Shown here piece by piece: positions 3,854-32,875 of a stretch of DNA of 64,000 nucleotides. The notes under the pieces were generated by a model. It had not been told where the DNA came from. It saw only the letters and a list, made by a program, of their open reading frames with translations, and searched no databases. Numbering within the stretch: the stretch's first letter is position 1; the number at the start of each line of letters is the position of its first letter. This DNA comes from Methyloversatilis sp. (GTDB lineage Bacteria; Pseudomonadota; Gammaproteobacteria; Burkholderiales; Rhodocyclaceae). A program made the position numbers and the translations under genes. Where the stretch lies: assembly GCF_030696805.1 (NCBI RefSeq), contig NZ_JAUYRO010000053.1, positions 1 through 64,000 on the forward strand. Direction: 5' to 3'.

Positions 3854-6703
3854 TCAGCCGGCGGCCGGATGCGGCTGGCCCCGCGCGTCCTTGTCGAGCA
3901 GCGGCGCCAGATAGCGCCCGGTGTGCGACGCCGGCTCGGCGGCGACCTGCTCGGGCGTGCCGGTGGCGACGATGCGCCCGCCGCCGGCACCCCCTTCCGG
4001 GCCGAGGTCGATGATCCAGTCGGCGGTCTTGATCACGTCGAGGTTGTGTTCGATGACGACGATGGTGTTGCCGGCGTCGCGCAGCCGGCCGAGCACGCCG
4101 AGCAGCATGTCCACGTCGTGGAAGTGCAGACCGGTGGTCGGCTCATCGAGGATGTACAGCGTGCGTCCGGTGTCGCGCTTCGACAGTTCCAGCGCGAGCT
4201 TCACCCGCTGGGCTTCGCCGCCGGACAGCGTGGTCGCACTCTGGCCGAGGCCGATGTAGCCGAGCCCGACTTCGACCAGCGTTTCAAGCTTGCGCGCCAC
4301 CGTCGGCACGGCGTCGAAGAAGTCGCGCGCTTCGGTCACCTTCATCGACAGCACATCGTGAATGGTTTTGCCCTTGTAGCGGATGTCCAGCGTTTCGCGG
4401 TTGTAGCGACGCCCGTTGCACACGTCGCAGGGCACGAACACGTCGGGCAGGAAGTGCATTTCGACGCGCACCAGCCCGTCGCCCTGACAGGCTTCGCAGC
4501 GGCCGCCCTTCACGTTGAACGAAAAGCGGCCCGGGCCGTAGCCGCGCGAACGCGCTTCCGGCACGCCGGCGAACAGTTCGCGGATCGGCGTCAGCAGGCC
4601 GGTGTAGGTGGCCGGGTTCGAGCGCGGCGTGCGGCCGATCGGCGACTGGTCGACATTGATCACCTTGTCGAACAGGTCCAGCCCCTCGATCGCGTCGTGC
4701 GCCGCCGGCAGCGCAGCCGACCCATACAGATGGTGGGCGGCCGCGGCATACAGCGTGTCGTTGATCAATGTGGACTTGCCCGAACCGGACACGCCGGTCA
4801 CGCAGGTCAGCAGCCCGACCGGAATCGCCGCGTCGGTGCCGTGCAGGTTGTTGCCGCGGGCGCCGCGGATGTGCAGCCAGTCGTCCTTCGCCGGCGTGCG
4901 GGTTTGCGGCACGGCGATCTGCCGGCGACCCGACAGGTAGGCACCGGTCAGGCTGGCTTCGCACGCTTCGATGTCGGCCGGCGTGCCCTGGGCGATCACT
5001 TCGCCACCGTGCTGGCCGGCGCCCGGGCCCATGTCGACCACGTGGTCGGCCATTTCGATCGCTTCCTGATCGTGTTCGACCACCACCACCGTGTTGCCGA
5101 GGTCGCGCAGCCGCGACAGCGTGCCGAGCAGGCGGGCGTTGTCGCGTTGGTGCAGGCCGATCGACGGTTCGTCGAGCACATACATGACGCCGGTCAGGCC
5201 CGAGCCGATCTGGCTGGCCAGCCGGATGCGCTGCGCCTCGCCGCCGGACAGCGATTCGGCCGAGCGGTCGAGACTGAGGTAGTCCAGTCCGACGTCGATC
5301 AGGAAGCCGAGCCGGGCGGCGACTTCGCGCATGATGCGGGCGGCGATCGCAGCGCGCGCGCCATCCAGTTCCATGCCGTCGAAGATGGCCTTGCAGGCGC
5401 GTAGTGGCAGCCCTGCCAGTTCCGGTAGCGTGTGCTCGGCCACCTTCACGTGGCGCGCATCACTGCGCAGCCGCGTGCCCTTGCAGTCCGGGCACACCTT
5501 GGTGTTGCGGTACTTGCCCAGCTCTTCGCGCACGGCGACCGAATCGGTTTCGCGGTAGCGGCGTTCCAGGTTCGGCACCACGCCTTCGAACACGTGCTCG
5601 CGTATCGTCGCGCGGCCCGATTCCGACAGGTAGCGGAACGGAATGCGGACCTTGTCCGAACCCTCCAGTACGACGGCCTGAAGCGCCGCGTCCAGCTCGT
5701 CGAACGGGGTGTCGATGTCGAATTTGTAGAACCCGGCCAGGCTGGACAGCAACTGGAAGTAGAACTGGTTGCGCCGGTCCCAGCCGCGGATCGCGCCGGA
5801 GGCGAGCGAAAGGTGCGGGTGGGCGACGATGCGCGCCGGGTCGAAGAAGGTGACCATGCCCAGGCCGTCGCAACTGGTGCAGGCGCCGGCCGGATTGTTG
5901 AACGAGAAAAAGCGCGGCTCGAGTTCCGACACGCTGTGGCCGCACACCGGGCAGGCAAAGCGGGCCGAAAAGAGCTGTTCGGCGTCGCTGTCCATGTCCA
6001 GCGCAATGGCGCGCCCCTCGGCCTGCTGCAGCGCGGTTTCGATCGATTCGGCGAGGCGCTGGCGCATGTCGGGGCGCACTTTCAGCCGGTCGACCACCAC
6101 ATCGATGGTGTGCTTGATGTTCTTGTCGAGCTTGGGCAGCGCGTCGATGTCCATCATCCTGCCGTCGAGCCGCACGCGCACGAAGCCGCGCGAACGCAGC
6201 TCGGATATCAGCTCGACCTGCTCGCCCTTGCGCTCGCTCACCACCGGCGCAAGGATGGCCACCTTGCTCTCTTCCGGCATCGCGAGTACGGCATCGACCA
6301 TCTGCGACACGCTCTGCGCGGCCAGCGGCGCGCCATGCTCGGGGCAGTGCGGCGTGCCGACGCGCGCGAACAAGAGGCGCAGGTAGTCGTGTATTTCGGT
6401 CACCGTGCCCACGGTGGAGCGCGGATTGTGGCTGGTGGCCTTCTGTTCGATCGAAATCGCCGGCGAGAGCCCCTCGATCAGGTCGACATCCGGCTTTTCC
6501 ATCAGCTGCAGGAACTGCCGCGCGTAGGCGGACAGCGACTCGACGTAGCGGCGCTGCCCCTCGGCATACAGCGTGTCGAACGCCAGCGAGCTTTTGCCGG
6601 AGCCCGACAGACCGGTGATCACCGTCAGGCGGTCGCGCGGGATGTCTATATTGATGTTCTTCAGATTGTGGGTGCGCGCCCCACGAATGCGTATCCAGTC
6701 CAT
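3854..6703 (-). CDS. uvrA: Excinuclease ABC subunit A
   Basis: [64 protein letters not shown], two ABC cassettes and zinc-finger CxxC motifs. The longer ORF N-terminus to 6817 looks like non-native repeat sequence. Confidence 0.98.
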
Positions 6704-6777
6704 CAGCCCGCCCGGTTTCATGCAACCGGGTATGAGAACCCATTTCGGGGGGAAAGGCGAGGAGCGCAGGAATCCGG

Positions 6778-6820
6778 ATTCAAGATTCAAGATTGAAGAT
6801 TCCAGGGCAAGGGGCAAGGG
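6778..6820. repeat. Short degenerate tandem repeat (ATTCAAG heptamers, then GGGCAAGG units)
   Basis: ATTCAAGATTCAAGATTGAAGATTCCAGGGCAAGGGGCAAGGG; a related block occurs at 49332-49359. Confidence 0.8.
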
Positions 6821-6955
6821 CGATGCGTGGGGTACGGATGATCCTTGGCACGGGCTCTGCGTGGGTTGGCGTCGCGCGCGCAGAAAAGAGCCCGGTGCGG
6901 CGCATCAGACCCTGCCGGCTTGCTAGAATCCCGGCTGACCGTTTTCCTGCCTCAC

Positions 6956-8329
6956 ATGACTCCCCCGACAAAAGACCGCATGACCCGCACGGAACTGCGC
7001 GCGGGGGCTGCGCTGGCCTTCATCATTTCCCTGCGCATGCTGGGGCTGTTCCTCGTGCTGCCCGTGTTCGCGGTGTTCGCGCGCACCCTGCCGGGCGGCG
7101 ACAACATTTTCTGGGTCGGCCTGGCGTTCGGCATGTTCGGCCTGTCGCAGGGCGTGATGCAGATTCCGCTCGGCGCCGCTTCGGACCGCTTCGGCCGCAA
7201 GCGCATCATCGTGATCGGTCTGCTGCTGTACGCCGCGGGCAGCGCGATGGCCGCCTGGGCGCCCGACATCAACTGGATGATCGCCGCCCGCATCCTGCAG
7301 GGCAGTGGTGCCATTTCGGCCGCGGCCACCGCGCTGGTGGCCGATCTGGTGCGTGACGAGCACCGCACGAAAATCATGGCGGTCATCGGCACGTCGATCG
7401 GTCTGGTGTTTGCCGGCTCGCTGGTGCTGGCGCCGGCGCTCTACGGCTGGATCGGCATGGAGGGCATCTTCCTGCTGATCGGCGGGCTGGCGCTGGCCGG
7501 CATTCCGCTGCTGCTGTTCGTCGTGCCCGACCCGGAACACGCGCCGGTCGTGAAGCCTGCGCCATTCGCACGCGTGTTCGGTGACCGCCAGCTGATGCGC
7601 CTCAATTTCGGCATGTTCGTCGTGCACATGGTGCAGATGGCCATGTTCCTGATGGTGCCGCTGGCCCTTGTGCAGGTGATGGACCTGCCGGTCGCCGAAC
7701 ACTGGACGCTGTACTTCCCGATCGTGATCGCCAGCTTCATCTGCATGATTCCGGCCATCATCTGGGCCGAACGCAAGTCACGCGTGAAGACCGTTTTCCT
7801 TGCTTCCATCGTCACGTTGATCGTGTCGCAGGTGATGTTCCTGCTGCATCTCGACCTTGCCTGGGTGCTGATCGGCGGCCTGTTCGTGTTTTTCGTGGCG
7901 TTCAACCTGCTTGAAGCCACGCTGCCGTCGCTGGTGTCGCGCATCGCGCCGCCGGACGCCAAGGGCGCGGCGCTCGGCGTGTTCAATACCGCGCAGTCCT
8001 TCGGTGCGGCGACCGGCAGTGCGATCGGCGGTGCAATCGCGCTGCGCTTCGGCGAAGATGGCGTCTATCTGTTCTGCACTGTGCTGGCCATCGTGTGGCT
8101 GCTGTGGGCGCGCAGCATGAAGCCGCCGCCGGTGGTCGCGCTGCGCGAGTACGTGATCGACGAACATGTCGATCTGGACCGCCTGCGTGACCAGATCAAC
8201 GACCTGCCCGGTCTGCGCGAAGTGCGCATCGAGGCAGAGCGGCGCATGGCTTTCCTGAAGGTCAATCTGGAACTGTGGGACGAAGAAGTCGTGCGCCGGC
8301 TGCTCGACCAGCCGGTCGCCGGTACCTGA
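6956..8329 (+). CDS. MFS transporter with C-terminal YAM-like domain (YajR-like)
   Basis: 12-TM MFS with the GxxSDRFGRKR motif. C-terminal EHVDLDRLRDQINDLPGLREVRIEAERRMAFLKVN resembles the YajR soluble domain. Start could also be ATG 6980. Confidence 0.88.
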   Translation: MTPPTKDRMTRTELRAGAALAFIISLRMLGLFLVLPVFAVFARTLPGGDNIFWVGLAFGMFGLSQGVMQIPLGAASDRFGRKRIIVIGLLLYAAGSAMAAWAPDINWMIAARILQGSGAISAAATALVADLVRDEHRTKIMAVIGTSIGLVFAGSLVLAPALYGWIGMEGIFLLIGGLALAGIPLLLFVVPDPEHAPVVKPAPFARVFGDRQLMRLNFGMFVVHMVQMAMFLMVPLALVQVMDLPVAEHWTLYFPIVIASFICMIPAIIWAERKSRVKTVFLASIVTLIVSQVMFLLHLDLAWVLIGGLFVFFVAFNLLEATLPSLVSRIAPPDAKGAALGVFNTAQSFGAATGSAIGGAIALRFGEDGVYLFCTVLAIVWLLWARSMKPPPVVALREYVIDEHVDLDRLRDQINDLPGLREVRIEAERRMAFLKVNLELWDEEVVRRLLDQPVAGT

Positions 8330-8450
8330 GATTATGCAATGGGCGTAATCTGCCCTGTGCGAACGAAGACGCGGCGCGCAGCGCCGTTTTGATCATGCAG
8401 TCCGTGGGCCCCGTCGGGGCGCACGCTCAAGACACTCCGGGGGAGAAATC

Positions 8451-19163: not shown

Positions 19164-22100
19164 TTGTCTGATTCTTCCTCCGCTGCCATTGCACACGCGC
19201 CCGCAGACGCCCGGTCCGCGCGGCCGTTATGGCGGCGACTGCCCGGCCGCGCCTTCGACGTGCTGCTGGTCGCCTGGATTGTCGTGGCGCTGGTCGTGCT
19301 GGGCGCGCGTCACCTGCTGCTGCCGCAGGTGGATGCCTACCGAACTCAGATCGAAGGCGCGGTGGGCGAGGCGCTCGCGCGCGAAGTGCGCATCGACAGC
19401 ATCCGCGCCGACTGGAGCGGTCTGCACCCGCATCTGGCGCTGCGTGGTGTCACCCTGCTCGACGAAGCCGGTCAGCCGGCGCTGCGGCTGGAACAGGTCG
19501 ATGCCGCACTCGGGTTTTCGTCGCTGGTGCGCGGGCGCATGCATCTGCACCGGCTCGATATCAACAGCCCCGCGCTGCAGATCCGCCGCGATACGGCCGG
19601 CGTACTCCACATCGCAGGGCTCGCGCTGCGGCAGGACGGCACGCGCGGCGGCTTTCTGCCATGGCTGCTCGCGCAGGGGCAGATCAACATCCGCGATGCG
19701 CAGCTCGAGTGGCATGACGAAACTCGCGCCGGTGCGCCGCCGCTGACGCTGACCCAGGTCAATCTGCGACTGGACAACTCGGGCGACCGGCACCGCTTCG
19801 GCCTGCTCGCCACGCCGCCGGCGGAACTGGCCCGGCAGCTGGAACTGCGTGGCGACGTGGTACTGCCCGACATCGACCAGCCGGCCCGCGCGTCGGGCGA
19901 ACTTTACGTATCGCTGGACAACGCCGACCTTGCCGTCTGGCAGAGCTGGGTCGATTACCCGGTCGATCTGCCCCAGGGGCGCGGTGCGGTGCGCGCCTGG
20001 GCGAATTTCGACGGCGCCACGCTCAATGCGGTCACCGGCGAACTGGCGCTGTCGGACGTGAAACTGCGCCTGCTGCCCGATCTGCCGCAGCTTGATCTGG
20101 TCACCCTGTCCGGGCGCGTCAGTGCCGAGCATCTGAGCCGCTCGCGGGTGACCGCCAATGCGCGCCAGTTGCAGTTGCTGACCCGCGACGGCGTGCGCGT
20201 GCGGCCGACCAGCATCGACCTGAAATGGCAGGCCGCCGCCGACGGACGAGCCGGGCAGGGTGAAGTGTCGGCCAGCGTGCTCGACCTTGCCGCACTGACC
20301 CGGCTGTCCGACTTCATGCCGCTGCCCGATCCGTTGCGCGAGCGGCTGCGCGATCACGCGCCGCACGGCCGGCTGACCGACCTCGACGCCGGCTGGACAG
20401 GCGAGCTGTCGGCGCCGCTCGGTTTCCGCGTCAGCGCCGGGCTCGACCGCATCGGCTTCAATGCGCGCGGCGACGTGCCCGGTGTGGCCGGTCTGAGCGG
20501 CAAGCTCGAAGGTAGCGATGAGCGCGGCAGCGTGGTGGTCGATGCGCCGGGACTGAGCTTCGATCTGCCGACGGTGTTCGCCGAGCCGCAGATCACGTTC
20601 GCCCGCTTCAAACTGCGTGCCGGCTGGTCGCGCAGCGACGGCGAAACCACCGTCGCGCTGGAATCCGTGGCGTTCGGCAATGCCGACGTCGAAGGCGAAT
20701 TCAGCGGCCGCTACCGCACGCTGCCGGAAAGCGCCGGGGAACTCGATCTGGATGGCCGCCTGCAGCGCAGCGACGCGCGCGCCATCTGGCGCTACCTGCC
20801 GCTGACCATTGGCGCCGATACGCGCGACTGGCTGCGTGATGCGCTGGTGGCGGGCGGCTCCACCGATGCAACGCTGAAGCTGCGCGGCAAGCTCGACGAC
20901 TTTCCGTTCGATCGCGGGCAAGCCGGGGTCTTTCTGGTCAAGGTGAAGGCCGAAGATGTGACGGTCGCCTTCGGTGGCACCTGGCCAGCCATCACCGGAC
21001 TCGACGCCGATGTGCTGTTTGAAGGCAAGCGCATGCTCATCACTTCGCGCGACGGCCGCATCCTGAACACGAAGCTGGGCACCACGACTGCCGAAATACC
21101 GGACCTCGAAGCGGCCGAGGAACTGTTGCTGGTGCGCGGATCGGCCAGCGGGGTCACGTCCGAGTTCCTGCGCTATATCGACATCAGCCCGGTGGCGGGT
21201 CGCATGGACGGATTCACCCGCGGCATGCGCGCCGACGGTAATGGCCGTCTCAATGTGTCGCTGGCCATACCTCTGCGCCACTCGCAGGACGCGAAAATCG
21301 AAGGCGATTTCACCTTCGCCGGCAATCGTCTGATCATCGACGACGCGCTGCCGCCGCTGACCGATGCGGCAGGCAAGATTTCGTTCACGGACAGTTCGCT
21401 GACCGTTCGCGGGGCGCAGGCGACGGCACTGGGCTTCCCGATGACGCTCGATGTGGCTTCAGCGGGCGGCGGCGTGGTGAATGTGACGGCCAGCGGACGC
21501 GCATCGATGGAGGCGCTGCGTGCCCAACTGGGGCAGCCGTGGCTCGCGGCACTCGCCGGCACGGCAGCCTGGCAGGCCCGCCTGGGCGTGCGCCGCAACG
21601 GCATGGACATGACGCTGGAAGCCGATCTGGCCCAGCTTGCCTCGACGCTCCCGGCCCCGCTCGGCAAGGCGGCCGGCGAGCCCATGACGCTCCGGATCGA
21701 ACGCACCGGCACGCTCGACGCGCGTGAATCGGCCCGGCGCGGCCTGCCGGCCATCGGTCCCGACCGCGAACTGTTGCGCGTCACGCTCGGCGATCTGGCC
21801 AGCGCCGACATCGTGCGCCGCACGGCGCCGACCGGCTGGGTCATCGAGCGAGGCGCGATCGGGCTGCCGCAACAGCCGGCGATGCCCGAGCGCGGACTTG
21901 CGCTGTCCGTGCGTGCCGATACGCTCGACCTCGACGCCTTGCGCCGTGCTTTTACACCGCGACCCACTCCCGAGGGGGCGGCGGGTGCGGCGGGTGCGGC
22001 GGGCAGCAGGGACGACGACCTGCCGCTTGCCCGCGTGCTGCTTGATGCGAAGCATGTGCGCCTGATGGACCACTGGCTCGATGCGGTCAAGGCCGATGCA

Positions 22101-23129
22101 CAACGTCAGGGCGAGGCCTGGGACATCGATCTTGCGAGCACGCAGGCGCGTGGCCGCATCAACTGGTCCGGGCAGGGCAAGGGCCGCCTGCAGGCGCGTT
22201 TCGACCAGCTGTTGATCAATACAGCGAGCGAGCCGGGCGTGCAGGCGTCGCCCGACGCCGAGGCGGAAGCGGGCGACGTGCTGGAGGATCTGCCTGCGCT
22301 GGACATCGAAGCAGCGCGCTTCGTGCTCGACGGCAAGACGCTTGGCAAACTGGCACTGCAGGCCAGCAACGAGCGGCGCGCCTGGCTGATCGACCGGCTG
22401 GCCCTGGAATTGCCGGAAGGCCGTTTCGATGCCAGCGGTGCCTGGGGCAAGCCGCTCGGTGCGCCGGGTGGCGTGCGCGAGACGCGGCTCGATTTTTCGA
22501 TCAGGGCGGACGAGGCGGGCAAGCTGCTCGATCGGCTCGGTCACGCCGACGCATTGCGCCGGGGTACTGCCGACATGAAAGGCAGCCTGCGCTGGAACGG
22601 CAACCCGTTGTCGATCGACTATCCGTCACTGTCCGGTGCGTTCAAGCTGTCGGTCAGCAAGGGGCAGTTCAGCAAGATCAACCCCGGTGCCGGGCGTCTG
22701 CTCGGCATCCTCAGCCTGCAGGCGCTGCCGCGCCGCATCACACTGGATTTCCGGGACGTGTTCAGCGAAGGGTTCGCGTTCGACCTGATTGAAGGCAATG
22801 TCGCGGTCGAGCGCGGCATCATGAAAACCGACGACTTCGAACTGGCCGGCCCGGCCGCACGCGTGCGGATTAGCGGCAGTGCGGACATCGCGGCCGAAAC
22901 GCAGAATCTGATCGTGCGCGTGCAGCCGGCGCTCAGCGACAGCGTGTCGGTCGGCGTGTTGATCGCCAATCCTGCGGTCGGGTTGGCCACCTACCTTGCG
23001 CAGAAGGTACTGCGCGATCCGCTCGGCCAGATTTTCGCCTTCCAGTACGGCGTTACCGGGTCCTGGGACGATCCGGTCGTGGCTAAACTTGCGGTGCCAC
23101 CACCGTCCGGCAAGCAGGCGGAAAATTGA
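19164..23129 (+). CDS. YhdP/AsmA-like large envelope protein (TIGR02099 type)
   Basis: 1321 aa with an N-terminal TM, AsmA/DUF3971-like repeats and C-terminal LSLQALPRRITLDFRDVFSEGFAFDLIEGNVAVERGI. TTG start inferred. Confidence 0.88.
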   Translation: MSDSSSAAIAHAPADARSARPLWRRLPGRAFDVLLVAWIVVALVVLGARHLLLPQVDAYRTQIEGAVGEALAREVRIDSIRADWSGLHPHLALRGVTLLDEAGQPALRLEQVDAALGFSSLVRGRMHLHRLDINSPALQIRRDTAGVLHIAGLALRQDGTRGGFLPWLLAQGQINIRDAQLEWHDETRAGAPPLTLTQVNLRLDNSGDRHRFGLLATPPAELARQLELRGDVVLPDIDQPARASGELYVSLDNADLAVWQSWVDYPVDLPQGRGAVRAWANFDGATLNAVTGELALSDVKLRLLPDLPQLDLVTLSGRVSAEHLSRSRVTANARQLQLLTRDGVRVRPTSIDLKWQAAADGRAGQGEVSASVLDLAALTRLSDFMPLPDPLRERLRDHAPHGRLTDLDAGWTGELSAPLGFRVSAGLDRIGFNARGDVPGVAGLSGKLEGSDERGSVVVDAPGLSFDLPTVFAEPQITFARFKLRAGWSRSDGETTVALESVAFGNADVEGEFSGRYRTLPESAGELDLDGRLQRSDARAIWRYLPLTIGADTRDWLRDALVAGGSTDATLKLRGKLDDFPFDRGQAGVFLVKVKAEDVTVAFGGTWPAITGLDADVLFEGKRMLITSRDGRILNTKLGTTTAEIPDLEAAEELLLVRGSASGVTSEFLRYIDISPVAGRMDGFTRGMRADGNGRLNVSLAIPLRHSQDAKIEGDFTFAGNRLIIDDALPPLTDAAGKISFTDSSLTVRGAQATALGFPMTLDVASAGGGVVNVTASGRASMEALRAQLGQPWLAALAGTAAWQARLGVRRNGMDMTLEADLAQLASTLPAPLGKAAGEPMTLRIERTGTLDARESARRGLPAIGPDRELLRVTLGDLASADIVRRTAPTGWVIERGAIGLPQQPAMPERGLALSVRADTLDLDALRRAFTPRPTPEGAAGAAGAAGSRDDDLPLARVLLDAKHVRLMDHWLDAVKADAQRQGEAWDIDLASTQARGRINWSGQGKGRLQARFDQLLINTASEPGVQASPDAEAEAGDVLEDLPALDIEAARFVLDGKTLGKLALQASNERRAWLIDRLALELPEGRFDASGAWGKPLGAPGGVRETRLDFSIRADEAGKLLDRLGHADALRRGTADMKGSLRWNGNPLSIDYPSLSGAFKLSVSKGQFSKINPGAGRLLGILSLQALPRRITLDFRDVFSEGFAFDLIEGNVAVERGIMKTDDFELAGPAARVRISGSADIAAETQNLIVRVQPALSDSVSVGVLIANPAVGLATYLAQKVLRDPLGQIFAFQYGVTGSWDDPVVAKLAVPPPSGKQAEN

Positions 23130-23222
23130 TGCCCTGGGTTCGCGGTCAGCTGGTCGGGTGGTCAGGTGCGTCGCTTGCCGCAGCATGCTTTGGCGGCGCA
23201 TCATCAAACTGAAAGGTCCGTC

Positions 23223-24041
23223 ATGAATACTTCTGCAATGACCCGCGTTGCTGCCGTGCAGATGGTGTCCGGCCCGAATGTTGCCGACAACCTCGACGAG
23301 GCCGGGCACTGGATTGCCGAAGCCGCCCGTCAGGGTGCGAAGCTGGTGGCGCTGCCCGAGTATTTCGCGCTCATTTCGGGTGACGAAGCCGACAAGGTGG
23401 CGATTCGCGAAACAGAGGGTGAGGGCCCGATCCAGCGCTTCATGGCAGAAGCCGCGCAGCGGCACGGCGTCTGGCTGGTCGGCGGTTCGGTGCCGCTGGT
23501 CGCCGACCGGCCCGACAAGGTGCGCAACACCTGTCTTGCCTACGGACCGGATGGCCGCCAGGTGGCGCGCTACGACAAGATCCACCTGTTTGCCTTCACG
23601 CGCGGCGCCGAGAATTACGACGAAGCGCGCACGATAGAGGCAGGCAGCACGCCGGTCGCCTTCGAGGCGCCGTTCGGGCGGGTCGGGCTGTCGATCTGCT
23701 ACGACCTGCGTTTTCCAGAGTTTTTCCGCGCGCTGGGCGACATGAAGCTGCTGGTGCTGGGGGCGGCCTTCACGGAAACGACCGGTCGCGCGCACTGGGA
23801 ACTGCTGCTGCGCGCGCGCGCGGTCGAAAATCAGTGCTACGTGCTGGCATCGGCGCAGGGCGGCGTGCACCCGTCGGGGCGGCGCACCTTCGGCGATTCA
23901 ATGCTGATCGACCCGTGGGGCCAGGTGCTCAATCGTCTGGCGCGCGGCCCGGGCGTGGTCGCAGGCGATCTGAACGAGGACTATCTCGTTGAAATAAGGC
24001 AAAATCTTCCGGCTCTGGGACACCGACGCCTTTCATGCTGA
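23223..24041 (+). CDS. Carbon-nitrogen hydrolase, Nit1/deaminated glutathione amidase type
   Basis: LVALPEYFAL (Glu), YDKIHLFAF (Lys), GLSICYDLRFPEFFR (Cys). Confidence 0.93.
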   Translation: MNTSAMTRVAAVQMVSGPNVADNLDEAGHWIAEAARQGAKLVALPEYFALISGDEADKVAIRETEGEGPIQRFMAEAAQRHGVWLVGGSVPLVADRPDKVRNTCLAYGPDGRQVARYDKIHLFAFTRGAENYDEARTIEAGSTPVAFEAPFGRVGLSICYDLRFPEFFRALGDMKLLVLGAAFTETTGRAHWELLLRARAVENQCYVLASAQGGVHPSGRRTFGDSMLIDPWGQVLNRLARGPGVVAGDLNEDYLVEIRQNLPALGHRRLSC

Positions 24042-24062: not shown

Positions 24063-24833
24063 ATGGCTGATCAACCCACCCGCCCCCATTCCCAGTTTCC
24101 GCACACGCTGGCTGAAGTCACGGTCATGGACGTCGACCGGCTGCGCTCCATGTGCATCGAGCAGGAAGACATCGCCGGTACGCGCGAAATGGCGCAGCAG
24201 AAAGACAAGTTCCGGGTGCGCCTGCTGAGCAGCGACAACGAGAAGCGCGAAGGCACCAGCCTGCTGATCGAGAAGATGTATTCGTGGCGCGGGTACCACA
24301 CGAAGAAGCAAATCGACGAGGTGCCCAACCGGATCACCCTTGTGGCGGAGTTCGATGGCCATATATATGGAACGATTACGGTCAATCTCGATTCCGATAC
24401 GGGTCTGTCGGCTGATGAAACCTACCCTGACGTGATGGCTGCACTGCGCGGCGACGGCCGTCGCGTGTGCGAATTCGGCAAGTTTGCCGTGGAACAGTCG
24501 GTCAAGTCGAAGCGACTGATGGGCACATTGTTCCACCTGATGTGCATCTACGCGTTCCGGCTGCAGCGCTGCGACGACGTACTGATCGAGGTAAATCCTC
24601 GCCACCGCGTGTTCTACGAAAAGTATCTGTCCTTTGTGCCGGCCGCCGAGGAACGCATGTGCAGCCGTGTCGGCGCACCCGCCGTTCTGCTCAGACTGAC
24701 GCGCGAAATGTATCGCAGCCGGGTCGATGAACTGGGCGGGCGCTGGCGCGATCTGAAGGAAGAGAAGTCGATGTACAAGTATTTTTTCCCGCGACAGGAA
24801 GAAGATGCCATCGCGGACCGGCTCGGACGCTAG
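24063..24833 (+). CDS. N-acyl amino acid synthase FeeM-like / GNAT-fold acyltransferase
   Basis: ITLVAEFDGHIYGTITVNLDSDTGLSADETYPDVMAALRGDGRRVCEFGKFAVEQSVKSKRLMGTLFHLMCIYAFR...DDVLIEVNPRHRVFYEKYLSF, matching my knowledge of FeeM/autoinducer-synthase-like domains. Confidence 0.7.
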   Translation: MADQPTRPHSQFPHTLAEVTVMDVDRLRSMCIEQEDIAGTREMAQQKDKFRVRLLSSDNEKREGTSLLIEKMYSWRGYHTKKQIDEVPNRITLVAEFDGHIYGTITVNLDSDTGLSADETYPDVMAALRGDGRRVCEFGKFAVEQSVKSKRLMGTLFHLMCIYAFRLQRCDDVLIEVNPRHRVFYEKYLSFVPAAEERMCSRVGAPAVLLRLTREMYRSRVDELGGRWRDLKEEKSMYKYFFPRQEEDAIADRLGR

Positions 24834-24876: not shown

Positions 24877-26364
24877 ATGACAGGTTCCACCCGCACGACC
24901 GGCATCCAGGCAGCACTACCTGGCCCCGACATGATGGACATCGCGCGATCGACGCTGCTAGCGCCATTCGATCTTGCGCGCCATGACCTCGACCGGGTGT
25001 TCGGCCTGCTCGCCTCACACCGCATTGACTACGCCGACCTGTATTTCCAGCACCAGTGCAGCGAGGCCTGGAGTCTGGAAGAGGGCATCGTCAAGTCCGG
25101 GAGCTTCAATATCGAACAGGGTGTGGGTGTGCGCGCGATCCAGGGCGAAAAGACCGCATTCGCGTATTCGGACGAAATCAGCGCCCCGGCGCTGGAAGCT
25201 GCGGCCCGCGCGACGCGTGCGATCGCATCGCAGGGCCAGAGCCTGACCGCGCGCACGCTGACCAGCAAGGCAAAGCTGCCGCGGGCGCTGTATTCGGCCG
25301 CCAACCCGCATGCCTCCCTCAGCGACACCGCGAAGGTGCAACTGCTTGAGCGGCTCGAAAGCTATGCCCGCGCGGAAGACAGCCGCGTCACACAGGTGAT
25401 GGCCCACATCGCCGGCACGCACGAAACGGTGCTGGTGATGCGCAACGACGGCCACATGGCTGCCGATGTGCGGCCGCTGGTTCGCGTGTCGGTCACCGTC
25501 ATCATGCAGGATGGTACGCGTCGCGAGCAGGGCTCGAGCGGCGGCGGCGGCCGCTTCGACTACGGCTACTTCACCGATGCAGTGTTGCGCGACTACGCGG
25601 CACGGGCGGTACACCAGGCACGGGTGAATCTCGACGCGCGTCCGGCGCCGGCCGGCACGATGAGCGTGGTGCTCGGCCCGGGCTGGCCGGGCATCCTGCT
25701 GCACGAGGCGATCGGCCATGGTCTGGAGGGCGATTTCAACCGCAAGGGCAGTTCGGCGTTCGCCGGGCGCATCGGCCAGCAGGTGGCGTCGCGCGGTGTG
25801 ACCGTGGTCGACGACGGTACGTTGCCGGATCGCCGCGGTTCCTTGACGATCGACGACGAAGGCAATCCGACCCGCTGCACAACGCTGATCGAGGACGGCA
25901 TTCTGGTCGGCTACATGCAGGACAGCCTGAACGCGCGCCTGATGGGCGTGGCGCCCACCGGCAACGGCCGGCGAGAAAGCTTTGCGCATCTGCCGATGCC
26001 GCGCATGACCAACACTTACATGCTCAATGGTGACCGCGAGCCGGAAGAAATCATCCGCTCGGTAAAAAAAGGCCTCTATGCCGTCAATTTCGGCGGCGGC
26101 CAGGTCGATATCACAAGCGGCAAGTTCGTGTTTTCGGGTGCGGAGGTTTATATGATCGAGAACGGAAAGGTGACCTACCCGATCAAGGGGGCAACGCTGA
26201 TCGGCAACGGCCCGGACGCGCTGACCCGCGTGTCGATGATCGGCAACGACATGGCACTGGACAGCGGCGTCGGTACCTGCGGCAAGGAAGGTCAGAGCGT
26301 TCCGGTCGGCGTCGGCCAGCCAACGTTGCGCATCGACGGATTGACCGTGGGCGGCACGGCCTGA
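24877..26364 (+). CDS. tldD: Metalloprotease TldD
   Basis: [35 protein letters not shown] (HExxxH-type site); C-terminal [44 protein letters not shown]. Confidence 0.97.
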
Positions 26365-27017: not shown

Positions 27018-27117
27018 TTCCTGCGCCGCGCCGTCATCGAACGAAAACGCGCGCCGGGGTAGAATCCGGCTCTTTTTACCGGCTTCCGTGCCTGCGCGGG
27101 TGCCAAAACCGAAGGCC

Positions 27118-28203: not shown

Positions 28204-29709
28204 GTGACCCTGTTTTCCGCAACGGCGCCAGCCCACAACTGGCGCCGTTTCTACTTTGCAGCGCTGCTGCTCACGCTGGTGTTCCGTGGCTGGCTGGGCG
28301 CAGCGCTGCCGTTCACCGGCGACGAGGCGTACTTCTACTGGTGGGGCAAGATTCCCGCCGGCGGCTTCTACGATCACCCGCCCATGGTCGGCTGGTGGCT
28401 GGCCGGCCTGATTGCCGTGTCGGAAGCCGAGTGGTGGCTGCGCCTGCCGGCCATCCTGCAGCCGGCACTGCTGTCCTTCATGTTGCTTGCCTTTCTGCGC
28501 GACGACCCGCATGCGACGCGCTGGGGCGTCGCCACGCTGGTGCTGCTTGCGCCGGCCAGTGTGCTCGACGTGCTCATCACGACCGACATTCCGCTGGTGT
28601 ATTTCAGCGTCGCGTCGGCACTGGTCTTTCTGAGTGCCGTGCGTGGCCGCACCGGCTGGCTGTTCGCGTTGAGCGGCCTGCTGCTGGGCGGCGCCTTCCT
28701 GTCGAAGTACTTCGCCGTGCTGCTCGGCTTCGCCTACATCGCCTGGGCGCTGTGGAGGCCGGCAGTCTGGAAATGGAAGGCGCTGGCGCTGCTCGTGCTG
28801 TGTGCATTGCCGGCCGGGCTGTACAACGCCTGGTGGAACAGCCAGCACTGTTGGGCGAACGTGATGTTCAATGTGTTCAACCGTCATGGCAACGCCCATC
28901 TGTCGTGGGAAACGCCGCTGCTGTACGGGGCGATGATGGTGTGGCTGCTCACGCCGATGGTCGTGTGGGGCCTGCTGCGCACGCCCGGGACCTGGCTGCG
29001 TCAGGTGGCGCTGCCCTGGCTGGTCATCGTGCCGCTGTCCATCTTCGGGCTGCTTTCGCTGGTGAAGACCATCGGCCTGCACTGGGTGTTTTCTTTCGTG
29101 CCGCTGGTGTTCCTGCTGTACGGGCGCAGCGTGTCCGACCTGACGCTGCAGCGGGCGATCCGGTTTGCAGCGGTGATTGCCGCAGTGCATGTCGCCGCAG
29201 TGCTGGCCGTGGCCACCCAGCCGGTCGAGCGCTGGGCCTCGCTGCTGGGCGAACGCAAATACGCCGGCGTGGTGCAGACGGTGAAGCCCGATGAGGTGAT
29301 CGCGGCACTCGGCGACGACGTGAATCGCTATGAACTGATGACCGACGGTTACTCGCCTTCGGTCACCGTCGGCTACAACCACCGCCGATACTGGCCGGTG
29401 TTCGGCCCGGCGTCGAGCCATGCGCGCCACGATGACATGCTGACCGACTTCCGCCGCCTCGACGGCCGCGACGTGCTGGTGCTCAGCAAGGAAGCGCCGG
29501 TGCTGACCGACTACACGCCGTATTTCCGTGATGTGCAAGTCGATGAGCTCACGGTGCGCGGCGCCAAGTTCTGGCGTATCCGCGGCCACAGCTTCGATTT
29601 CGCGGCCTATCATGCCGGCGTGCTCGAACCGGCGCGCCGCTACTGGTACGCGATCCCGGGCTGGTTGCCGCAGCAGGGCTGCTTTTTCGAAGAACGTTAT
29701 TTCCGCTGA
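28204..29709 (+). CDS. Glycosyltransferase family 39 (ArnT-like) membrane protein
   Basis: ALPFTGDEAYFYWWGKIPAGGFYDHPPMVGWW motif; multiple TM segments. GTG start inferred. Confidence 0.85.
   Translation: MTLFSATAPAHNWRRFYFAALLLTLVFRGWLGAALPFTGDEAYFYWWGKIPAGGFYDHPPMVGWWLAGLIAVSEAEWWLRLPAILQPALLSFMLLAFLRDDPHATRWGVATLVLLAPASVLDVLITTDIPLVYFSVASALVFLSAVRGRTGWLFALSGLLLGGAFLSKYFAVLLGFAYIAWALWRPAVWKWKALALLVLCALPAGLYNAWWNSQHCWANVMFNVFNRHGNAHLSWETPLLYGAMMVWLLTPMVVWGLLRTPGTWLRQVALPWLVIVPLSIFGLLSLVKTIGLHWVFSFVPLVFLLYGRSVSDLTLQRAIRFAAVIAAVHVAAVLAVATQPVERWASLLGERKYAGVVQTVKPDEVIAALGDDVNRYELMTDGYSPSVTVGYNHRRYWPVFGPASSHARHDDMLTDFRRLDGRDVLVLSKEAPVLTDYTPYFRDVQVDELTVRGAKFWRIRGHSFDFAAYHAGVLEPARRYWYAIPGWLPQQGCFFEERYFR
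28222..28252 (+). terminator. Terminator-like hairpin after aroG, inside the GT39 5' coding region
   Basis: Perfect 10-bp inverted repeat ACGGCGCCAG-CCCACAA-CTGGCGCCGT followed by TTCTAC. Confidence 0.55.
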
Positions 29710-29741
29710 ATGCCTGCAGGATTGCCATCCGGCCGCCGATC

Positions 29742-30608
29742 ATGATTGCCGCTGCGTTCAAGTTGCTGCGACCGCACCAGTGGGTGAAGAACGGTTTCGT
29801 GTTCTTCGGCCTGCTGTTCGGCCACGCCTGGCACAACAGCGCCACGGTGCAGGCGGCCATTCTTGCCTTCCTCGCCTTCTGCCTGATGTCGAGCGCAGTC
29901 TATGCGCTGAACGATCTGCGCGATATCGAGCAGGACAGGCTGCATCCGGCCAAGCGGATGCGCCCGCTGGCATCCGGTGCGCTTTCGCCGTCGGTGGCCA
30001 TCCTGCTGATGTCCGCCTGCTCGATCGGTGCGCTTTTGCTGGCCTGGCAGGTCGGCGATACGCTGGTCTATCTGTTGTGCATTTACGGCCTGATCAACTT
30101 CGGCTACAGCTATGGCCTGAAGCGAGTGGTGGTGCTCGACGTATTCCTGATCAGCGCCGGCTTCATGCTGCGTCTGCTGGCCGGGACCACCGGGCTGGAC
30201 ATTCCGCCGTCGAACTGGCTGCTGATGTGCGGCCTGCTGCTGACGCTCTTCCTCGGCTTTTCGAAGCGGCGCGCCGAGCTGATGCTGATGGACGAGGCGG
30301 GCGGGGCGCACCGCAAGGTACTTGATCTGTATTCCCCGGCGCTGCTCGACCAGTTCATCACCATCACCGGCGCCTGTGCCGTGGTGGCGTACTCGCTGTA
30401 CACGGTCGATGCTGACACGGTGCGCATTCATGGCACGGCAGATCTCATCTATACATTGCCGTTCGTGCTGTACGGGCTGTTCCGCTACCTGTACATGCTG
30501 CACCGCCGCGGTGGTGGCGGTGATCCGTCATATGACCTGTTCCGCGACCCGCACCTGATCGTCGCGATGGGCGGCTGGCTCGCGGTTACGATTTCCCTGC
30601 TGCGCTGA
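29742..30608 (+). CDS. UbiA-family prenyltransferase, decaprenyl-phosphate phosphoribosyltransferase-like
   Basis: LLRPHQWVKNGFVFFGLLFGHAW; NDLRDIEQDRLHPAKRMRPLASG; second Asp motif NFGYSYGLKRVVVLDVFLISAGFMLR. Confidence 0.85.
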   Translation: MIAAAFKLLRPHQWVKNGFVFFGLLFGHAWHNSATVQAAILAFLAFCLMSSAVYALNDLRDIEQDRLHPAKRMRPLASGALSPSVAILLMSACSIGALLLAWQVGDTLVYLLCIYGLINFGYSYGLKRVVVLDVFLISAGFMLRLLAGTTGLDIPPSNWLLMCGLLLTLFLGFSKRRAELMLMDEAGGAHRKVLDLYSPALLDQFITITGACAVVAYSLYTVDADTVRIHGTADLIYTLPFVLYGLFRYLYMLHRRGGGGDPSYDLFRDPHLIVAMGGWLAVTISLLR

Positions 30609-32071: not shown

Positions 32072-32875
32072 TTATGCCGGCAACGGCGCAAGTCGCGCAT
32101 CCGGCTGCCACAGTCTCTGCAGCACCCGCTCAGCGGTGTCCGAGGCGGCCGAGGACCAGAAGCTTTCGGTTCCTGTCGCGTTTGCGCTGCGCAGAAGTCC
32201 GGCATCGTTCAGTCGATGCGCCAGCTGACGGGCCACCGAATCGCCGGTGTCGATGACCCGTACCGACGGCCCAGCCTGTTGCTCGACCCACTTGCGCAGG
32301 AACGGATAGTGCGTGCAGCCGAGCACGATCACGTCGGCACCGTCGGCCAGCAGCGGTTCGACATGCGACGCGATCAGCGCCTGCGTGGCGAGGGTGTCCA
32401 GTTCGCCGCGTTCGACCGCCTCGACCAGGCCGGTACCGGGCCGGGTGATCACGCGGACGTCGCGGCCGAAGGTGTCGAGCAGTGCAGCGAAGCGCGCGCT
32501 GGCCAGCGTCCCCGTGGTGGCGAGTATGCCGACCACACCGGACCGCGTGGCGGCGGCGGCGGGTTTGACCGCCGGTTCCATGCCGATCACCGGCACGTCC
32601 GGCCAGCGTTCGCGCAGGGCGTGAGCTGCGGCCGCCGTTGCCGTATTGCAGGCGATCAACAGCGCTTTCGCGCCCTGGTCGATCAGAAATTCACCCAGCG
32701 TCAGGCTGCGCTCCCGGATCCAGTCGGCGCTGCGCTCACCATACGGTGCATGGCCCGAATCGGCGACGTACAGGAAGTTTTCGCCAGGCAGGCGCGCCCT
32801 TGCGTGGCGCAGCACCGACAGGCCGCCAAGGCCGGAGTCGAAAACGCCTATCGGGGCATCGTTCGTCGGGGTCAC
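32072..32875 (-). CDS. murI: Glutamate racemase
   Basis: PIGVFDSGLGGLSVLRHARARLPGENFLYVADSGHAPYG; IACNTATAAA; VLGCTHYPFL. Confidence 0.97.
   Translation of the reverse strand: MTPTNDAPIGVFDSGLGGLSVLRHARARLPGENFLYVADSGHAPYGERSADWIRERSLTLGEFLIDQGAKALLIACNTATAAAAHALRERWPDVPVIGMEPAVKPAAAATRSGVVGILATTGTLASARFAALLDTFGRDVRVITRPGTGLVEAVERGELDTLATQALIASHVEPLLADGADVIVLGCTHYPFLRKWVEQQAGPSVRVIDTGDSVARQLAHRLNDAGLLRSANATGTESFWSSAASDTAERVLQRLWQPDARLAPLPA

Follow-up and report, generated by a model that had tools for sequence, protein, structure and literature searches.

The window, 64,000 nucleotides from contig 86 in a Methyloversatilis genome of 4.19 Mb, carries a feeM-type gene (24063–24833, forward strand; P0001) whose 256-residue product very probably belongs, judged from its sequence, to the FeeM class of N-acyl amino acid synthases (NASs). 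The product has the putative catalytic glutamate of the family, the gene is maintained by strong purifying selection, and its clade occupies two alternative housekeeping positions. The explanation that we favor, with rather modest confidence, is that a FeeM-type NAS makes a product serving an XrtA/PEP-CTERM cell surface and that the housekeeping site is only a place.

The open reading frame has exactly the limits given in a preliminary description of this DNA. It starts with ATG, and a GAGG stretch resembling a ribosome-binding site lies just 5′ of the start. The same-strand run of genes begins with yhdP (19164–23129), which encodes an AsmA-like envelope protein (TIGR02099, 793.5 bits versus a cut-off of 519; PF13116, E = 3e-289). 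It continues with nit (23166–24041, real start probably at 23223), a carbon–nitrogen hydrolase gene of the nitrilase superfamily (PF00795, E = 1.2e-52), and, on the other side of feeM, with tldD (24877–26364), a TldD/PmbA metalloprotease gene (NF008006, 682.6 bits versus a cut-off of 513). The YhdP, nitrilase-type, and TldD neighbors named in the preliminary description are thereby confirmed. The gaps are 21 bp between nit and feeM and 43 bp between feeM and tldD. Co-transcription of the three genes is likely, because a consensus scan of this strand shows nothing terminator-like in the intervals and places the nearest such site at 27053. A promoter scan at the feeM locus found none.

The product matches the Pfam family FeeM (PF21926) with 172.5 bits (cut-off 27; E = 7.3e-51) over residues 66–212, covering profile positions 3–157 of 158. 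FeeM (PDB 2g0b) is the sole match in the PDB when the single sequence is searched with phmmer (E = 2.7e-11), and the sole sequence match when a 27-row profile is used (E = 2e-23). An AlphaFold model of the product, computed from a shallow alignment of ten sequences, is weak (pLDDT 55, pTM 0.58). In a Foldseek search with this weak model as the query, ranks 1–6 are all chains of 2g0b (best E = 1.1e-8); other GNATs and the AHL synthase BjaI rank below them. The FeeM assignment of the preliminary description thus agrees with the Pfam match, the PDB sequence search, and the fold search, the last returning a FeeM/GNAT fold with 2g0b on top from a model with a pLDDT of 55. Its suggestion of a LuxI fold stands as a resemblance at the level of the fold, in view of BjaI, but not at the level of the family, as the LuxI family model Autoind_synth (PF00765) gives no match to the product at E ≤ 0.1. 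PF13444 and the exosort_acyl model TIGR03694 do not match the product, either.

The position of the gene was compared among 200 genomes of the same taxonomic family, in which we examined the surroundings of almost every match with an E-value below 1e-15. Weak matches (E 1e-4 to 1e-9), with frames mostly of 430–500 residues, are probably ArgA-type GNATs, judged by length, and were excluded from the counts. The order nit–feeM–tldD (context A) is present in 11 of the sampled genomes, from five genera. The order queG–feeM–murI (context B) is present in nine genomes from two genera; queG was named by TIGR00276, and murI is a gene that we take to be such from its likeness to 32072–32875 of the window. 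In context C (28 loci in the same bacterial family), a more distant relative of feeM is divergent from an XrtA/PEP-CTERM exopolysaccharide export gene, and the XrtA neighbors are named by the curated models TIGR03027, TIGR03007, TIGR03018, and TIGR03016. A location near a LapD-like gene (context E) is restricted to Methyloversatilis. In a tree made by a quick method without bootstrap, contexts A and B are joined with an SH-aLRT of 100 and context C falls outside, while A alone is not resolved as a clade. Contexts A and B are one clade, situated at either nit/tldD or queG/murI. Context C copies are missing from every genome that has context A or B (0/7 versus 7/13 genus representatives, p = 0.04, which is suggestive only). 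Sampled relatives from the wider order (37–46% identity) have no nit/tldD or queG/murI neighbors within about 1.5 kb around 19 loci, and one of these 19 loci adjoins an XrtA export gene. The chromosomal position of feeM is unusual, not unique.

In the 39 examined genus representatives without feeM, nit and tldD are direct neighbors in all 39, with a gap of at most 198 bp (median 67 bp), which bears out the earlier remark that the two genes are common neighbors. Because of this adjacency, feeM would most simply be a clade-specific insertion into a pre-existing nit–tldD pair. The preliminary description had also raised the case that feeM is a universal member of the cluster with an unrelated function. 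That case fails, as most genera have nit–tldD without feeM, and feeM is found in the yhdP–nit–tldD cluster in only 11 of the 200 genomes. The same observations bear on whether feeM, nit, and tldD form one local pathway. The shared strand, the 21 and 43 bp spacing without an intervening terminator-like site, and the conservation of the order in five genera would fit such a pathway, which we nevertheless consider very unlikely: the pair persists without feeM in every one of the 39 representatives, and the same clade resides at queG/murI in two genera, indicating that the neighbors of feeM are interchangeable. Nit and tldD probably give feeM a promoter and a place only, and no pathway.

Glu137 (codon 24471–24473), within the motif CEFGKFAVE, is the putative catalytic glutamate. 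It is invariant in 27 aligned homologues, and its aligned counterpart in the 2g0b chain is residue 96, presumably the published Glu95 of FeeM, off by one through construct numbering. Glu95 of FeeM is catalytic, and the equivalent Nas354 mutant (E103A) is inactive (PMC4897644). Two further motifs on the same strand are EVNPRH (residues 176–181; 24588–24605), in which E176, P179, R180, and H181 are invariant in alignment A2, and CxRVxAPA (residues 200–207; 24660–24683), in which C200, R202, V203, A205, P206, and A207 are invariant in the same alignment. Every member of the A/B clade keeps Glu137 and both motifs. Outside the FeeM domain, an N-terminal extension, FPHTLAEVTVMDVDRLRSMCIEQE (residues 12–35; 24096–24167, forward strand), is particular to the A/B clade. 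Its pattern, LAEVTVMD..RL..MCIEQE, is shared by the 23 context A and B members without exception and is nearly absent elsewhere; the shorter pattern C[IVL]..[EQ] near the N-terminus occurs in 23/23 rows from contexts A and B, against 1/28 from context C and 0/42 from the others. The active-site surroundings differ as well, being CEFGKFAVE in the A/B clade and CEvTrlAiDp in the XrtA-linked relatives. The product is 99% identical in Methyloversatilis sp. XJ19-49 and one Methyloversatilis MAG, and 82–92% identical in other Methyloversatilis, including M. universalis and M. thermotolerans. The dN/dS of feeM against other Methyloversatilis is 0.01–0.12, indicating that the gene is under strong purifying selection.

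The preliminary description had connected the gene with exosortase/PEP-CTERM systems. The connection is seen at the level of the genome and across genera, but not at the locus: the adjoining genes are nit and tldD, with no exosortase, PEP-CTERM, or exopolysaccharide gene among them, and the nearest PEP-CTERM frame found on this contig is about 55 kb away. Elsewhere, the genome has two exosortases above the cut-off, both on other contigs, and about 78 PEP-CTERM frames above the cut-off of a 24-position model whose single matches are weak; the same model exceeds its cut-off in only 2 of 14 control genomes. Defining XrtA-type exosortases as TIGR02602 matches above 170 bits, a cut placed visually where the scores leave a gap, we find XrtA in 20 of 22 genera carrying a FeeM-type gene versus 11 of 46 others (p = 1.7e-7; one genome per genus, 68 genera, phylogeny only partly corrected). 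All seven A/B-clade genera have XrtA (7/7, p = 0.003, one genome per genus). Counted per genome, the figures are 61/68 versus 30/132; one genome per genus is preferred because of relatedness. The co-occurrence agrees with the link between NAS genes and exosortases published by Craig et al. in 2011, as cited in PMC4897644 and PMC7293339, and with Methylomonas LW13, in which the polysaccharide band is lost on disruption of an exosortase-associated NAS gene and regained on complementation (PMC11072679). Among the papers searched, none deals with Methyloversatilis together with exosortase. The observation and the family call of the preliminary description stand, while an exosortase link at the locus is not supported.

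The enzyme, by analogy with characterised relatives, would bind an acylated acyl carrier protein, and the glutamate would act as a base in the transfer of a long acyl chain to the amino group of an amino acid. As genome context suggests, the product may then serve a cell surface (exopolysaccharide, biofilm, or floc matrix) made by the XrtA exosortase/PEP-CTERM exopolysaccharide system, whose genes are elsewhere in the genome. Product, acyl donor, and role are thus deduced for feeM from its relatives, and we rate the link to XrtA itself at even chances or slightly better. The XrtA region already has a TIGR03694 acyltransferase, so there is no obvious need for feeM in trans; XrtA is present in 11 of the 46 genera without a FeeM-type gene, and two FeeM-carrying genera are without XrtA. 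Moreover, XrtA may be served by an NAS other than the feeM product, because the genome encodes other acyltransferases, having five FeeM-like genes in all. In the own-genome search, TIGR03694 detects the copy in the XrtA region (C98:77264–77959), detects a C47 copy weakly, and detects no others. A second FeeM-family paralogue, 34% identical (C1:20880–21836; L060:6881–7837), lies near a LapD-like GGDEF/EAL gene (c-di-GMP); it is present in 6/6 sampled Methyloversatilis, with a tandem duplicate in one (L121). Because Nas354 carries a c-di-GMP-binding domain (PMC4897644) and this paralogue is near a LapD-like gene, a c-di-GMP link may recur. An acyltransferase of PF13444 (OlsB-like) with an adjoining PlsC-like acyltransferase (C47:128554–130242; L062:5555–7243) is probably an ornithine-lipid OlsB/OlsA pair, and a weak FeeM-like open frame is present at C68:35822–39749 (L061:5823–9750).

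Several side observations concern these loci. In this genome, the C1 paralogue is also near an alpha-2-macroglobulin gene and a C93 (LapG-type) peptidase gene. The gene after the C47 pair encodes SpoIIE-phosphatase and cyclic-nucleotide-binding domains. The C68 region also encodes an AIR-synthase-like protein, a radical SAM protein, and a carbon–nitrogen hydrolase, possibly a separate small pathway. In several genomes, a FeeM-type gene is beside or near a TIGR03694-like acyltransferase (L077 of G159, 6070–8400; L087, L104, and L130).

Other fates of the product can be envisaged. It could be a secreted signal, given that the fold is common to AHL synthases, with BjaI among the Foldseek matches, and that N-acyl tyrosines of the stieleriacine type influence the composition of biofilms (PMC7293339). 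However, the LuxI family model gives no match, no regulator gene is present in the immediate neighborhood of feeM, and FeeM-type genes co-occur with XrtA, so that a signal is unlikely. A GNAT of FeeM fold that acylates a protein, a sugar amine, or an aminolipid precursor is somewhat less likely still. The extension and active-site surroundings particular to the A/B clade mean that its substrate may differ, and we found no assay of an A/B-clade member; against this, the NAS signature motifs are retained, as is the catalytic glutamate. A more specific version of the XrtA reading, in which the N-acyl amino acid is a membrane lipid acting as partner of XrtA and not a secreted signal, with a head group that the exosortase uses or modifies when it anchors PEP-CTERM proteins or exopolysaccharide, would account for FeeM-type genes accompanying XrtA even from unrelated chromosomal positions such as the present one. 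The data behind it are the co-occurrence only, and we regard it as highly improbable.

Compared with FeeM, the Methyloversatilis protein has the GNAT-like fold, the catalytic glutamate, and an NPxHxxFY-type motif, but shares only about 30% identity, carries the conserved extension at its N-terminus, continues for about 50 residues past the APA motif, and is not surrounded by a fee biosynthetic cluster. With the PEP-CTERM/exosortase-linked NASs (Craig, Cherry and Brady 2011, as cited in PMC4897644), it has in common a genome with XrtA and PEP-CTERM proteins and many relatives of the same family in XrtA/exopolysaccharide loci, whereas the A/B clade itself is found apart from exosortase genes, in the nit/tldD or the queG/murI position. 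The TIGR03694 acyltransferases, one of which is in the same genome, are of a related fold family but on a separate tree branch, and their model does not recognize the feeM product. LuxI/BjaI AHL synthases resemble it in fold and in acyl transfer to an amine, without a shared PF00765 match. OlsB-type ornithine N-acyltransferases likewise N-acylate an amino acid, but the PF13444 match in this genome belongs to the separate C47 pair.

What long-chain N-acyl amino acids do physiologically for the bacteria producing them has been stated to be open (PMC4897644). The kind of enzyme and its exosortase link are already known (2011), and the gene is a well-conserved further case. In the A/B clade, the synthase gene lies among housekeeping genes in culturable Methyloversatilis. 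As feeM is away from the exosortase locus, the synthase can be deleted without touching the exopolysaccharide operon, which makes the proposed link between an N-acyl amino acid and the XrtA/PEP-CTERM surface directly testable. Downstream of the yhdP–nit–feeM–tldD cluster, the window also contains genes for a PMT_2-type glycosyltransferase and then a UbiA-family prenyltransferase (28204–30608), possibly glycan-lipid genes.
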